From NCBI RefSeq assembly GCF_013911085.1, contig NZ_JACERN010000039.1, positions 186,001-250,000 of the forward strand: 64,000 nucleotides of DNA. Reading direction: 5' to 3'. Origin of the DNA: Aquitalea aquatica (GTDB lineage Bacteria > Pseudomonadota > Gammaproteobacteria > Burkholderiales > Chromobacteriaceae). Below the pieces are notes generated by a model. That model did no database searches. It was given only the letters and a program-made list of their open reading frames with translations, and was not told where the DNA came from. This document shows positions 918 through 56,392 of this stretch, piece after piece (position 1 is the first letter of the stretch; every line of letters begins with the position of its first letter). The position numbers and the translations under genes are program-made.

Positions 918-2300
918 TTATAGTCTTTGCTCGGATAAAGCGGCAGTAAAAACTGTGAAATCAAGTTCGACCTGATCGGCATAACTCATGGCATAGCTGG
1001 CAATGGCCTGGTCGAATTTGTCCGACTGGCCGATATAGCCCGCCATTTCCGCAGCCCGGCCACCGGATTTGGCATGTGCGCGTGCCAGGGCCCAGGCACA
1101 AGCCTGGCCAAATGCCGCCAGGCTTTCCGGTGAGTCGAATGACTCCAGTGCCGGCGCTGCTTTCATGTCGCGCAGCTGGCGCACATAGAAATGGCGCTCA
1201 CCCGGCCCGCTAGTCCAGCCCAGGAACAGGTCGCTGGCCGCCTGCATCAGCCGCTGGCCAAACACAACGCGCTTGCCCTGATGGCCGTGTACGCATTGCT
1301 GGGTGTAGGGCTCCAGTACCGAGCTGCGTGCTTCTTTCAATTGCAGGAATAGCGGCTGGTCGTATTCGTCCTGCAGCAGCATCACCAGGCAGCGGGTGCC
1401 GACACTACCTACCCCGACTACCTTGAAGGCGGCATCCACCAGCCGGAAGCGGCTGAGCAGGGTGCGGCGGTCTTCCTTCAGCGTGGCGCTGTATTCGGCC
1501 AGCATGGGCTGCAGCAAGTCGTGTGGTGTGCCATCGCCCAGCCAGTGTTCGTCATTACCCCAGACCTGGTCTTGCTGTTGCATGTGGAAGATGACTGGCG
1601 GGTTGTCGCGCAGGCGCAGGCTGCCGTCTTCCAGCACGGTCATCTTGGGCAGCAGCTTTTCCTGGGTCTGGCCGCGTGCCTTGTCGGCCAGCTTCAGCAA
1701 CTGCTGGCGGATGGTGTCGTTGCTGGCCCGTGCCAGCAATTGTTCGAAGCCTACCTTGCAGTACCACAATTCCAGCTGACTCATCTGGGCATATTCCTGC
1801 ATGCGCCGGCGATAGGTTCCCACCAGCTGGCACACCGCCTGCCGCGCTGCACTGTTGCTGAAGCCGCGATTGCGTGCGGCCAGCACCACGCTGACCGCCA
1901 GGCGCTTGATGTCCCATTCCCATGGTGCCTGATGTGTTTCGTCGAAGTCGTTGATGTCAAACATCAGCTGGCGTTCCGGCGAAGCAAAGAAGCCGTAGTT
2001 CATCAGGTGGGCATCGCCGCAGGTTTGCAGGGTGATGCCGCTATTGGGTGTCACGGCCAGATCGGCAGCCTGGATCATCGCCATGCCACGGAAGAAGGCA
2101 AAGGGCGAAGCCTGCATACGGCTATAGCGCAACGGGATCAGGGAGGAGACGCGGCCTGCCGAGGTGTGGCGCAGCATGGCAACCACGTCGCGCTGCGGAC
2201 TCAGTTGGCATTGAGCCTGCAGGGTACGCGAGCAGCGTTCACGACGTGCCTTGCCGGCGGCAAGGCGTATTTCATATTGCGGATGGGCAGGAGTGGGCAT
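918..2300 (-). CDS. DUF2252 family protein
   Basis: A 460-aa cytosolic protein that matches the DUF2252 (COG4320) family. The hallmarks are GDAHLMNYG (95-103), DINDFDET (115-122) and WDIKRLA (129-135), which resemble the catalytic block of the aminoglycoside/choline kinase-like fold. A later segment (VGVGSVGTRC) is also typical of the family. The biochemical role of DUF2252 proteins is not established, so no substrate is proposed. The gene is preceded by about 100 bp of spacer and is followed on the same strand by a chemoreceptor gene; nothing suggests a shared function. ATG at 2300 is the first start, with only a weak ribosome binding site. Confidence 0.85.
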   Translation of the reverse strand: MPTPAHPQYEIRLAAGKARRERCSRTLQAQCQLSPQRDVVAMLRHTSAGRVSSLIPLRYSRMQASPFAFFRGMAMIQAADLAVTPNSGITLQTCGDAHLMNYGFFASPERQLMFDINDFDETHQAPWEWDIKRLAVSVVLAARNRGFSNSAARQAVCQLVGTYRRRMQEYAQMSQLELWYCKVGFEQLLARASNDTIRQQLLKLADKARGQTQEKLLPKMTVLEDGSLRLRDNPPVIFHMQQQDQVWGNDEHWLGDGTPHDLLQPMLAEYSATLKEDRRTLLSRFRLVDAAFKVVGVGSVGTRCLVMLLQDEYDQPLFLQLKEARSSVLEPYTQQCVHGHQGKRVVFGQRLMQAASDLFLGWTSGPGERHFYVRQLRDMKAAPALESFDSPESLAAFGQACAWALARAHAKSGGRAAEMAGYIGQSDKFDQAIASYAMSYADQVELDFTVFTAALSEQRL

Positions 2301-2401: not shown

Positions 2402-3160
2402 CTAGTCCTGCTGCAGGAAGTGCAGTAATTGCCGGTGGTAGTGCAAGGCGGCAGTGGGCTGCGCTTGCCAGTGTTGCTGCAACTGGTGGCCCGCCCCGGC
2501 CAGCCACAATAGTTGGCTACTGCGGCACTGGCTGGTGCTGGCATACAGTTTTTCAATCAAGCTGCGCGGAATCACCGCGTCCTGCTTGGCTGCCACGATC
2601 AGCACATGACCGCGAAATTGCTGCAGGCGCGACCAGGCATCGCTATCCAGCCAGCTGAGTGGCTGGCGCAGCATGGCGCTGAAGGCAGGGCCGAACGGGA
2701 CATCAAAGGCTTGTGGGGTGTAGGCGCCGGGTACTTGCAGGATCAGGTGGCTGCAGGGTAGCTGCTCCAGCAGGTGCAGGGCGATATAAGCCCCCATGCT
2801 GCTACCCAGTAGCGCCACCGGCTTGTTGTCCGCATGGCAATGACGGTATACCGCCAGGGCTTGCTCCACGCGCTGGCGCAGGCTGGACCCCAGCAGGCTA
2901 CCTCCGGTTTCGCCGTGGCCGATGAAGTCAAAAGCGCTGCTGGCAACCCGCTGTGACTGCAAATGCTGTCTTAATGGCAGATAGCTGGAGCGGTCGGCTT
3001 GTCCGGCACCGTGTAGCAGCAGCAAGTGGCGCAGGGGAGCTGGGCTATTGCAGCAGTCGCCGCGTAGCAGGGTAGTGGCAAACGGTAGGCTAAAGGCCTG
3101 GCGGGGCAGGGCAGCATTCCTTTCGATATGGGCTATCGTCGATGTTGTGGTGATTGTCAT
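2402..3160 (-). CDS. Alpha/beta hydrolase
   Basis: A 252-aa single-domain alpha/beta hydrolase. The oxyanion-type motif LLLHGAG is at 47-53, the nucleophile elbow GSSMG at 119-123 (Ser121), the acid in AAKQDAVIP (Asp194) and the histidine in AGAGHQ (His225), so the triad looks complete. The substrate cannot be told; the fold fits a small esterase or lipase-like enzyme. A GTG at 3187 would add nine residues, but ATG 3160 is preferred because the longer form would run into the DnaA-box-like cluster upstream. Neither start has a convincing Shine-Dalgarno sequence. Confidence 0.75.
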   Translation of the reverse strand: MTITTTSTIAHIERNAALPRQAFSLPFATTLLRGDCCNSPAPLRHLLLLHGAGQADRSSYLPLRQHLQSQRVASSAFDFIGHGETGGSLLGSSLRQRVEQALAVYRHCHADNKPVALLGSSMGAYIALHLLEQLPCSHLILQVPGAYTPQAFDVPFGPAFSAMLRQPLSWLDSDAWSRLQQFRGHVLIVAAKQDAVIPRSLIEKLYASTSQCRSSQLLWLAGAGHQLQQHWQAQPTAALHYHRQLLHFLQQD

Positions 3161-3167
3161 TGTCTGT

Positions 3168-3365
3168 TTGTCCACAGATTCATGCACAGGCTATGCACAT
3201 CATCCACAACGGATGAGGTGTTTGTAAAAGCATGCACAGCTGGCCTGTCATTGCCGTCGGGGCATTGTCACGTATTGATGGCACCATATGCGGTCTTATG
3301 CACAGCTTGTTCAGGATTTATCCCGGCCATCCACAGAGTTGGTGTTGGTGGGAAACTTATCCACA
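3168..3365 (+). promoter_or_regulatory. Cluster of eight DnaA-box-like 9-mers, all in one orientation
   Basis: Compared with TTATNCACA, perfect boxes start at 3296 (TTATGCACA) and 3357 (TTATCCACA). One-mismatch boxes start at 3168 (TTGTCCACA), 3180 (TCATGCACA), 3191 (CTATGCACA) and 3200 (TCATCCACA). Two-mismatch boxes start at 3230 and 3327. All lie on the plus strand, and most continue as CACAG. Start-to-start spacings are 12, 11, 9, 30, 66, 31 and 30 bp, close to multiples of a helical turn. The segment lies between the ends of two minus-strand genes. It could titrate, regenerate or assemble DnaA, or regulate the hydrolase gene; this is inference. Confidence 0.6.
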
Positions 3366-3373
3366 GTTGGATA

Positions 3374-3748
3374 TCAGCTGGCGCAGCGCTTGATCAGCCG
3401 CAGCCAAGGCGGTGTTAGCGGGATGCCGTTCTGGTCGACCTGCAAGCGGCTGTGTTCGCCATCTGGCTGCACATCGACTTCCAGGCTGGTGTTGCCGCTG
3501 ACCGGGTTGAGCAGCTTGATGGTCTCCATGCCGTCGGCCTTGCTTTCACGCTGCACGTAGTCGTCGGGAATCTTCAATTGATGGATGCCCTGTTTCAGGC
3601 AATCTGCCACGGCAGCCGGGCTTTTGTCGGATGTCAGTTGCAAGCTGCTGTCAGCACGAGCTAGGGCGGGGCAGGCCAGCAGGATGGTTAGCAGCAGCAC
3701 GCGGTACAGGGATTGGCGCAATGTCGGAGTCGGGAATGGCTTTGGCAT
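3374..3748 (-). CDS. Small secreted protein, unknown function
   Basis: A 124-aa protein with a signal peptide: basic N-terminus, hydrophobic LYRVLLLTILLACPA and a likely cleavage after ALARA. The mature part has two cysteines (in ADCLKQG and LIKRCAS) that could pair, and no domain I recognise. It is probably periplasmic. ATG 3748 is chosen over an upstream GTG at 3799 because it places the basic residues directly before the hydrophobic core. The stop codon abuts the DnaA-box-like cluster. Upstream, 79 bp away, is a membrane protein gene on the same strand, so the two may be co-transcribed. Confidence 0.6.
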   Translation of the reverse strand: MPKPFPTPTLRQSLYRVLLLTILLACPALARADSSLQLTSDKSPAAVADCLKQGIHQLKIPDDYVQRESKADGMETIKLLNPVSGNTSLEVDVQPDGEHSRLQVDQNGIPLTPPWLRLIKRCAS

Positions 3749-3827
3749 GGGGCTGGGCTCTGGCAAGTGATATGCGGATGGAGGCCTGGCAGCGCCCACT
3801 GGTTCCGCCCTGTTGCGGCAACAGATG

Positions 3828-4446: not shown

Positions 4447-5706
4447 TCAGCCGCGGACCTGGCCGTCGCCCAGCACGATCCATTTCTGGCTGGTAAGACC
4501 TTCCAGGCCTACCGGGCCACGGGCATGGATCTTGTCGGTGGAAATGCCGATTTCCGCGCCAAGGCCATATTCGAAGCCATCGGCAAAGCGGGTGCTGGCA
4601 TTCACCATCACGCTGGAAGAGTCCACTTCGCGCAGGAAACGGCGTGCCCGGCCGTAGTCCTCGCTGATGATGGCATCGGTGTGATGGCTGCCGTAGTGGT
4701 TGATGTGCTCGATGGCTTCGTCCAGATCCTTGACCACCTTGATGGCCAGAATCGGGGCGGAGTATTCGGTGAACCAGTCTTCTTCCGTCGCTGCCACTAC
4801 CTTGTCGCCCAGAATGGCACGGGTGCGTTCGCAGCCGCGCAGCTCCACACCCTTTTCCCAATAAGCCTCGGCCAGGCGCGGCAGGATGAATTCGGCAAAG
4901 GCCGTGTGCACCAGCAGGGTTTCCATGGTGTTGCACGGGGCGTAGCGCTGGGTTTTGGCGTTGATGGCGATATTGAAGGCTTTTTCCGGATTGGCCGTGT
5001 CGTCGATATAGACATGACAGTTGCCGTCCAGATGCTTGATCACCGGCACGCGTGCTTCGGCACTGATGCGGGCGATCAGGCTCTTGCCACCGCGCGGCAC
5101 GATGACATCGACGAACTCCTGCATGGTGATCAGCTCACCCACCGCAGCACGGTCGGTGGTTTCCACCACTTGCACCACTTCGGCCGGCAGGCCGGCCAGG
5201 CGCAAGCCTTCGTGCACGCAGGCGGCAATGGCCTGATTGCTGTGGAAGGCTTCCGAGCCGCCACGCAGGATGGTGGCGTTGCCGGATTTCAGGCACAGGC
5301 CGGCGGCATCAGCGGTGACGTTGGGGCGGGCTTCGTAAATGATGCCCACCACGCCCAGCGGCACGCGCATCTTGCCTAGCTGGATGCCGGACGGGCGGTA
5401 GCAGAAGTCGTCCATTTCGCCCACCGGATCGGGCAGGCTGGCAATCTGGCGCAGGCCTTCGGCCATGCCGGCAACGGTGGCCTCGGACAAGGCCAGGCGG
5501 TCGATGAAGGCGGCGTCCAGCCCGGCGGCGCGGGCGGCGTCCAGATCTTGCTGGTTGGCCGCCAGCAGTTTGGCACTGTCGCGCAGGATGGCGTCGGCCA
5601 TGGCGTTCAGTGCCTGGTTTTTCTGGCGGGTGTCGGCCTTGGCAATCGCGCGGCTGGCTTTGCGCGCCGCCTGGCCGACGCGCTGCATGTAGTCCTTCAC
5701 ATTCAT
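4447..5706 (-). CDS. proA: Gamma-glutamyl phosphate reductase
   Basis: A 419-aa enzyme of proline synthesis that reduces gamma-glutamyl phosphate with NADPH to glutamate-5-semialdehyde. Length and sequence match ProA throughout: [19 protein letters not shown] (113-131), the NAD(P)-binding [13 protein letters not shown], and the catalytic cysteine in [12 protein letters not shown] (Cys258). The C-terminal motif [15 protein letters not shown] is complete. No proB (glutamate 5-kinase) lies next to it, so the pathway is split on the chromosome. A terminator follows directly. ATG 5706 is the natural start. Confidence 0.97.
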
Positions 5707-55086: not shown

Positions 55087-56013
55087 ATGGAGCATTTCGA
55101 TCTGCTGGCGGCCGATGGCCACCGCATTCATGGCTGCCGCTGGTTGCCGCCTACCGGGCAGGCGCTGCGCGCCGTGTTGCTGATCGCTCACGGCATGAGC
55201 GAATATGCCGCCCGCTATCAGCCGGTGGCACAGCTACTGGCGGCGCAAGGCATTGCGGTCTACGCCCATGACCATCGCGGCCATGGCCCGCATGCCGCCC
55301 ATCAAGGCTGGTTTGCCGCCGAGCATGGCTGGGACAAGGTGGTGGATGATGTGGAATGCGTGCGCCAGCATGCGGTAGCCCAACATCCGGGTCTGCCCTT
55401 GCTGCTGTTCGGTCACAGCATGGGTTCGTTTATCGCACGCAGTTATTTCCTGCAGTACGGCGACCAACTATCGGGCTTGCTGCTGTCCGCCACCGGCTAT
55501 CGCCAGCGCCCGCTGGCCCGTGTGCTGCGTGCCGTGGCACAGCTGGCTGGACGGCTGGGCGGCATGAATACACCCAGCCGTTTCATGGCCAGGCTGGTGT
55601 TTGGCAGCTTCAATCTGGCTTTTATTCCCGCCCGCACCAGCATGGACTGGCTGTCACGTGATCGCGCGCAGGTGGATGCCTATATTGCCGATCCGCTATG
55701 CGGCTTTGATCCCACTCCCGGCCTATGGGTTGATCTGTTTGGCGGCATCATCGCGCTGGAGCAGGGCGAGGCCGCAGCGGCAGGGCGCTTGCCACGGCAT
55801 TGCCCGGTGTATCTGCTGGCCGGTAGCCGCGACCCGGTCAGCCATGGCCGGCTGGCGCTGGGCCAGCTGGAAATCTGCTACCGCGATGCCGGGCTGATCG
55901 ATATCCACAGCCATGTCTATGCGGGTGGGCGTCACGAAATGCTCAACGAGAGCAATCGGGCCGAGGTATTGCAGGACATCCAGAAGTGGCTGGACCGGGT
56001 GATCAAGCGCTAG
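55087..56013 (+). CDS. Alpha/beta hydrolase, monoacylglycerol lipase-like
   Basis: A 308-aa hydrolase of the serine aminopeptidase S33/monoglyceride lipase group. LLIAHGMSEYAARY is at 31-44, HDHRGHG at 61-67, nucleophile elbow GHSMG at 109-113 (Ser111), acid in AGSRDPVS and histidine in GGRHEMLNE. This is the lysophospholipase/MGL pattern (HGM-E). It is probably cytosolic and acts on lipid esters. GAGG lies before ATG 55087. The gene stands alone. Confidence 0.85.
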   Translation: MEHFDLLAADGHRIHGCRWLPPTGQALRAVLLIAHGMSEYAARYQPVAQLLAAQGIAVYAHDHRGHGPHAAHQGWFAAEHGWDKVVDDVECVRQHAVAQHPGLPLLLFGHSMGSFIARSYFLQYGDQLSGLLLSATGYRQRPLARVLRAVAQLAGRLGGMNTPSRFMARLVFGSFNLAFIPARTSMDWLSRDRAQVDAYIADPLCGFDPTPGLWVDLFGGIIALEQGEAAAAGRLPRHCPVYLLAGSRDPVSHGRLALGQLEICYRDAGLIDIHSHVYAGGRHEMLNESNRAEVLQDIQKWLDRVIKR

Positions 56014-56023
56014 GACTACGGCT

Positions 56024-56392
56024 TCAGACAGGGTGGGCGACATGCCACAGCCAGGCGATCCAGCCGCCCCAGGCCAGCCAGTGGGCCAGTACGATCAGCC
56101 AGAATGCTAGCTGATAGCTACCCTTGCTGGATTTGTGGTGTAGCCAGTATTGGCCCAGCACGCCACCCGGCCAGCCGCCCAGCAGCTCCAGCCAGTGCAA
56201 TAGCTTTTCCGGCGTGCGGCGGCCATGGTGAATAGCCTGGCGCTTGTCCCAAGCGTACACGGCAAAAGTCAGCACGCTCATGCCGAGGTAAAGCAGCAGC
56301 GGCCAGAACAGACTGTGGGTGAGCGCAAAGCTGCCGGCAGCCAGCAAGGGCGGCAGGGCAAGCAGATTGGCGAGCGGGCGGGGCAGGGGCAT
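56024..56392 (-). CDS. DUF1294 membrane protein
   Basis: A 122-aa protein of the DUF1294 family. The signature VYAWDKRQAIHHGRRTPEKL then GGWPGGVLGQYWLHHKSSKG is clear. There are about three membrane segments. In related proteins this domain is often fused to a cold-shock domain; here it is alone. Function unknown. The gene is convergent with the lipase-like gene (10-bp gap) and divergent from fadH. Confidence 0.8.
   Translation of the reverse strand: MPLPRPLANLLALPPLLAAGSFALTHSLFWPLLLYLGMSVLTFAVYAWDKRQAIHHGRRTPEKLLHWLELLGGWPGGVLGQYWLHHKSSKGSYQLAFWLIVLAHWLAWGGWIAWLWHVAHPV

Follow-up and report, generated by a model that had tools for sequence, protein, structure and literature searches.

A conserved array of DnaA boxes beside proA in Aquitalea and its relatives: a candidate site of DnaA control near the replication origin

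The array and the genes around it

The window (the whole 64-kb stretch of Aquitalea DNA analysed here, family Chromobacteriaceae) carries a run of DnaA-box-like sites between an alpha/beta hydrolase gene and a small gene that is followed by proA. The run occupies 198 bp of the + strand and contains eight sites that all face the same way. Six of them (3168, 3180, 3191, 3200, 3296 and 3357) differ from TTATNCACA by at most one mismatch, and the other two (3230 and 3327) by two mismatches; several of the array boxes are weak. A sequence-only reading of this DNA had reported eight same-strand sites, six with at most one mismatch, at spacings of 12, 11, 9, 30, 66, 31 and 30 bp, and our recount gave the same sites and identical spacings. 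The features of the locus are as follows, with the evidence for each in brackets.

918..2300, − strand: gene for a DUF2252 protein, the second neighbour (Pfam)
2402..3160, − strand: alpha/beta hydrolase gene adjoining the array (Pfam)
3168..3365, + strand: whole DnaA-box array, read as two tandem modules (box search, shuffles and genus alignment; found in 10/10 genus genomes, 7 of which were used to build the model)
3168..3238, + strand: module 1, an interpretation of boxes 3168, 3191, 3200 and 3230 at offsets 0/23/32/62
3168..3176, + strand: DnaA box TTGTCCACA, which reads TTATCCACA in 7/10 aligned genus sequences (box search and alignment)
3180..3188, + strand: extra box TCATGCACA, separated from box 3168 by a 3-bp gap, i.e., double-box spacing (box search; spacing compared with the accessible text of PMC11317965)
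3191..3199, + strand: DnaA box CTATGCACA (box search and alignment)
3200..3208, + strand: DnaA box TCATCCACA, directly abutting box 3191 (box search and alignment)
3230..3238, + strand: weaker box GCATGCACA, which reads TTGTNCACA in 5/10 genus sequences (box search and alignment)
3265..3271, + strand: TTGTCAC, a non-box element between the two modules (in the arrays of 10/10 Aquitalea genomes and 0/21 arrays of other genera)
3296..3365, + strand: module 2, an interpretation of boxes 3296, 3318 (degenerate), 3327 and 3357 at offsets 0/22/31/61
3296..3304, + strand: DnaA box TTATGCACA, which opens a 19-bp stretch with 17 positions invariant in the genus (box search and alignment)
3318..3326, + strand: degenerate box TTATCCCGG, which completes module 2 and reads CTATCCACA in 1/10 genus sequences (alignment)
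3327..3335, + strand: weaker box CCATCCACA (box search and alignment)
3357..3365, + strand: consensus box TTATCCACA (box search and alignment)
3374..3754, − strand: small gene with no Pfam match that looks secreted by eye, its stop 8 bp beyond the array (ORF and Pfam search)
4447..5706, − strand: proA, the constant neighbour, its 3′ end toward the array in 31/31 model-matched genomes (NCBIfam)

The hydrolase ATG (3160) and the stop of the next gene (3374) flank the array, so it is non-coding if the hydrolase starts at that ATG, as had been proposed. If the hydrolase instead started at a possible upstream GTG (3187), its frame would cover the first box and most of the second.

The box motif itself is not over-represented in the window, where both strands together hold 24 sites with at most one mismatch against 28.8 expected, but its clustering in the array is. 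The window reaches six same-strand boxes per 198 bp, and the maximum in 300 dinucleotide shuffles of the 64 kb was one box in 92 shuffles, two in 197, three in 10 and four in a single shuffle, which bears out the earlier claim of clustering beyond chance. Exact copies of TTATNCACA number 55 in the whole 4.46-Mb genome, two of them in the array. The densest clusters of exact copies are on contig C46, with seven at 55765-56255 (the oriC candidate discussed below) and four at 66840-67089. The array is the largest outside oriC that we encountered in the analysis.

To describe spacing across the family, we used 22 non-redundant arrays from the 32 collected (the window is counted twice among the 32). 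Same-strand distances of 61, 9, 39, 22, 30 and 31 bp recur in 17, 12, 12, 11, 10 and 10 of the 22 arrays, respectively, while 500 rounds of random placement gave any one distance in at most nine arrays, under a null that ignores shared descent. A module whose boxes lie at about 0/22/31/61 bp contains all of these recurring distances, and most arrays fit a reading as two such modules separated by 83 to 129 bp. The window's array then has eight boxes, or nine with the degenerate box at 3318, and box 3180 is additional to both modules. In E. coli, DnaA in vivo prefers “double DnaA boxes” with 3- and 2-bp gaps (PMC11317965, accessible text), and these gaps equal the 12- and 11-bp steps at 3168-3180-3191.

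The spacings had also been described as close to multiples of a helical turn. The eight box starts are indeed in phase with the helix (resultant 0.82 at 10.5 bp, with 0.74 at 9.75 bp as runner-up among 17 periods tried), but the 9-12 bp steps alone raise this value. Across the 22 arrays, the phase of same-strand distances peaks at 10.5 bp with a resultant of 0.35 (273 distances, which are not independent). Module-to-module separations (n = 6, read by hand) have no significant phase, with 0.61 at 10.5 bp and equal or higher values at 10.75 and 11 bp. We therefore do not use helical phasing as support for reading the array as a control locus.

Conservation of the array and turnover of its neighbours

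We built a model, using sequence only, from an alignment of seven distinct arrays of Aquitalea (genus g1 in our numbering) and ran it over 61 genomes of the family. This run used stricter filters and weak matches were lost, so genomes missed by the model are weak evidence of absence. It matched 31 of the 61 genomes, seven of them being the training sequences and 24 new. Matches fell in g1 (10/10, with G002, G004 and G008 outside the training set), g2, which we take to be Chromobacterium (17/19), g7 (3/6) and g8 (1/1); under the stricter filters, the other six of the ten genera gave no match.

The region beside proA was also inspected by eye in 20 of the 30 genomes without a model match. One of these, G028 (g2), has a full array by direct reading, the sole full array among the 20. 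In g10, three of five inspected genomes retain two or three boxes beside proA, which are traces only, and the 10 inspected genomes from g3, g4, g5, g6 and g9 have no array beside proA. G023 (g2) has neither an array nor tandem box pairs (see below) by model, eye inspection or pair search. Separately, three g7 genomes (G039, G041 and G042; loci L116, L117 and L118) carry a short run of boxes resembling TTGTNCACA immediately past the proA stop. Each run has two or three copies of TTGTNCACA spaced 11 bp apart, together with near-misses; these runs sit where other g7 members carry the full array.

Among 10 distinct Aquitalea sequences, invariant columns are far more frequent in boxes (45/81) than in spacers (18/117; Fisher p = 4e-9); genomes in both g1 samplings were counted once. 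Conservation of the boxes in close relatives was one of the two points, the other being DnaA binding in vivo, on which the sequence-only reading had said its proposal would stand or fall: the array is present in relatives, with boxes and spacing kept.

The genes beside the array are less constant. In each of the 31 model-matched genomes, the array is within 6 kb of the proA 3′ end, and the genes on its other side vary: the hydrolase followed by DUF2252, DUF2252 without the hydrolase, a gene resembling glutamine synthetase (G044), or a TlyA-like gene (G038 and G040, where family scores are just below curated cut-offs). The hydrolase homologue is absent beside the array in G002, G003, G004 and G008, all four of which keep the array, and G038, G040 and G044 showed no DUF2252 gene up to about 1.5 kb from the array. 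At L022, L025, L028 and L041 (G006), the match to the hydrolase homologue is split into three segments that differ in frame, which suggests decay or sequencing error, and the adjacent array is intact.

These neighbours bear on the earlier suggestion that the array is a DnaA-regulated promoter, at which DnaA would set transcription of the adjacent hydrolase or DUF2252 gene and so link it to the replication cycle. The array does lie on the 5′ side of one or other of these genes in Aquitalea and in the g2 loci examined, and it contains one sigma-70-like site (− strand). However, the downstream gene differs among genomes, and in two of them, G038 and G040, proA and a TlyA-like gene converge with the array between them. 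No promoter would be expected in such a setting, and this is our chief reason for thinking that the DNA itself has a role. The single promoter-like match in 2900-3600 is at chance level (0.4, sd 0.6, in shuffles), and about 190 bp with eight boxes is long for one promoter. We therefore regard a promoter as quite unlikely to be the array's main role, though the array may regulate a neighbouring gene in other genomes. With changing neighbours and a convergent setting in two genomes, it appears to be an independent locus rather than the promoter of one gene.

Position relative to oriC and the tandem box pairs

In its own genome, the window is C12:186001-250000, and the array (C12:189166) is about 139 kb from the dnaA match (C12:50197-50685), in agreement with the remark that it lies away from dnaA. 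To place the array and the tandem box pairs relative to oriC, we used genomes with the chromosome in one contig (sets of nine and ten genomes; G017 has a second small contig). In G001, GC skew in 40 samples changes sign between 1.14-1.16 and 1.18 Mb, and seven exact boxes cluster at 1155513-1156003. In G028, the skew sign flips across the homologous box cluster at 236.3-236.8 kb, and homology recovered the segment in all 10 genomes queried. This combination of skew change, box cluster and homology makes the segment the likely oriC of Aquitalea. In the window's own genome, it is at C46:55765-56303 (L033:7765-8303), beside waaC and on a different contig from dnaA, so the array, dnaA and oriC are separate loci.

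In all 10 genomes with whole chromosomes, the array is on the same arm with its boxes directed away from oriC, at a distance of 242-527 kb (0.107-0.198 of an arm). Both its place beside proA and its side of oriC might reflect inherited gene order.

The array was also considered as oriC itself and rejected, as an AT-rich unwinding element and a strand-skew change (skew taken from the relative G001) are both absent. A relict or auxiliary origin is a related idea, and dense DnaA boxes of one orientation, as seen in the array, are a property of many origins. Such an origin is nevertheless highly improbable here: there is no skew change (G001 samples at 1.32, 1.43 and 1.54 Mb are all positive), and the lowest 40-bp GC content in or near the array is 40%, compared with 25% in the oriC candidate.

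A second kind of box arrangement occurs around oriC. The pattern TTATCCACA-N20-TTATCCACA (at most one mismatch) is present in 35 of the 61 family genomes, with 4 to 12 pairs each in 18/19 g2 genomes and one or two in 9/10 g1 genomes, while a reversed-pattern control found none in the 61. When spacers of 5 to 35 bp were allowed with no mismatch in nine genomes, eight of the nine had some pairs; the spacer was 20 bp in 30 of the 37 pairs, 21 bp in seven and no other length, and the control pattern gave no pairs in the same nine genomes. In an order-wide sample of 399 genomes, exact pairs with a spacer of 20 or 21 bp occur in 9/13 family genomes against 5/386 others, which makes the pair mostly a feature of this family.

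The pairs are concentrated around oriC in G016, G017, G021, G022, G024 and G028, and those of the window's own genome are at C46:67052-67089 and C12:40381-40418. Among the matches listed for nine genomes, 58 pairs were available. None lies beyond the half of an arm closest to oriC, and 51 fall within the closest quarter; 50 of these 58 point toward oriC and eight away. Genomes of one genus are not independent, and merging pairs within 6 kb (in origin coordinates) left 30 clusters, with 24 pointing toward oriC, four away and two tied (p = 2e-4). The matches listed for the N20 pattern include seven of the 11 pairs counted in G028 and none from the genomes that follow it. Two further G028 pairs are outside the direction test: 619839/619868 points toward oriC and fits the pair rule, and 804517/804547 (spacer 21, one mismatch) reads away.

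The modules of the array hold a similar pair at 30 bp (offsets 31 to 61), and we consider that the array belongs with this wider set of origin-proximal pairs. Note that the array boxes face away from oriC, whereas most tandem pairs face the opposite way. In E. coli, DnaA boxes are reported to be enriched near oriC and biased to the lagging strand; they resemble the tandem pairs in being near oriC with a one-strand bias relative to the fork, but neither a 29/30-bp pair spacing nor a module array is described for them in the accessible text (PMC12371093).

Possible role and comparison with known DnaA-binding loci

That the array is a chromosome-level DnaA control site is well supported by comparative sequence evidence: its boxes and spacing are conserved, its neighbours change, and its side of oriC and distance from it are kept. 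The array is probably a chromosomal binding site for DnaA that, once the origin has fired, reduces the supply of DnaA for initiation. DnaA would bind its same-direction boxes cooperatively, head to tail as on an origin. Because the array would be copied early, its dose would double soon after initiation and tie up DnaA (titration), and the tandem pairs, also duplicated early, would add to this lowering of free DnaA. The assembled DnaA complex might also speed ATP hydrolysis, as datA does. The window's genome encodes both DnaA and Hda, and with Hda present, the cell can probably also draw on regulatory inactivation of DnaA at the sliding clamp.

More broadly, we tentatively suggest, at somewhat less than even chances, that the Chromobacteriaceae control initiation through IHF-independent, origin-centred DnaA sites of strict geometry. 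These would be a two-module array of 8-9 boxes beside proA, about 4-12 tandem pairs in g2 (20/21-bp spacer, mostly toward oriC) and possibly a separate DARS-like site. If so, the layout of the boxes would dictate a particular DnaA assembly working as a dosage clock, and this would be a third scheme alongside datA/DARS and the B. subtilis clusters. To our knowledge, few bacteria are known to have loci dedicated to DnaA control, and a conserved example whose spacing code is fixed, found outside the gammaproteobacteria and firmicutes, would mean that they have arisen in a wider range of bacteria. The box-pair spacing rule is also a ready prediction of DnaA assembly geometry, and a single 200-bp segment that can be deleted or moved would let titration and catalytic inactivation be separated.

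One of the known systems that had been proposed for comparison is datA of E. coli. A true datA equivalent would be a catalyst of DnaA-ATP hydrolysis that requires IHF. The array's place is comparable, at 0.11-0.20 of an arm from oriC against about 0.2 for datA, and the datA stretch also has its boxes mostly on one strand (3/4 boxes with at most one mismatch). Like datA, the array is non-coding (if the hydrolase starts at 3160), lies outside oriC and keeps a conserved relative distance on one arm (PMC4585315, accessible text). The difference lies in IHF. Using the consensus TAAnnnnTTGATW (from the accessible text of PMC10950094), the best match in each of the 32 arrays (window counted twice) has 1-3 mismatches, and for each array 11% or more of 100 shuffled copies contained a match as good, i.e., the arrays do no better than shuffles; the positive control, the E. 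coli datA stretch, has a perfect consensus between its boxes. This absence argues against the E. coli datA mechanism in its known form, and we consider a true datA equivalent unlikely. The proposed likeness to datA thus holds for position and one-strand layout and fails for IHF. Two repeated modules are a feature of the array and not of datA, and datA neighbours tRNA-Gly/queG where the array neighbours proA.

DARS1 and DARS2 of E. coli are, like the array, non-coding DnaA-box loci away from oriC. Their core has boxes I and II opposed (PMC8682772, accessible text), and the boxes that we took for the core are at +0/-14/-26 in both. In contrast, all array boxes face one direction, and the array of the window holds no opposed box with at most one mismatch. 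In some relatives, the 800 bp examined do include one or two opposed boxes. Having no opposed core, the array does not sustain the suggested likeness to DARS, and with the IHF consensus also missing, it is by membership neither datA nor DARS.

A candidate DARS-like site was seen elsewhere in the window's own genome (G000 C6:80013-80048; L036:3013-3048), with the same site in G001 (L088) and G028 (L145). It has opposed consensus boxes 27 bp apart, arranged in Aquitalea as +0/-15/-27 with a weaker third box; G028 has no third box with at most two mismatches. Measured from oriC, the site is about 0.57 of an arm away in G028 and about 0.71 in G001.

In B. subtilis, removing six box clusters outside the origin gave early initiation (Okumura 2012, via the accessible text of the review PMC5295017), a result that fits limiting free DnaA. 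The array is likewise a DnaA-box cluster near oriC but outside it, though B. subtilis belongs to a different phylum and, according to the same text, the titration parallel is itself debated. Closer to Aquitalea, the accessible text on the related Laribacter describes an oriC with eight DnaA boxes and hda and mentions nothing resembling the array (PMC3135505). Among the papers listed in a literature search, with most subscription journals outside its scope, none describes such a locus in Aquitalea, Chromobacterium or Neisseria, judging by titles and the opening lines of abstracts. Compared with these systems, and going by box content and position, the array most closely resembles a DnaA-box cluster near the origin, or datA in a titration role.
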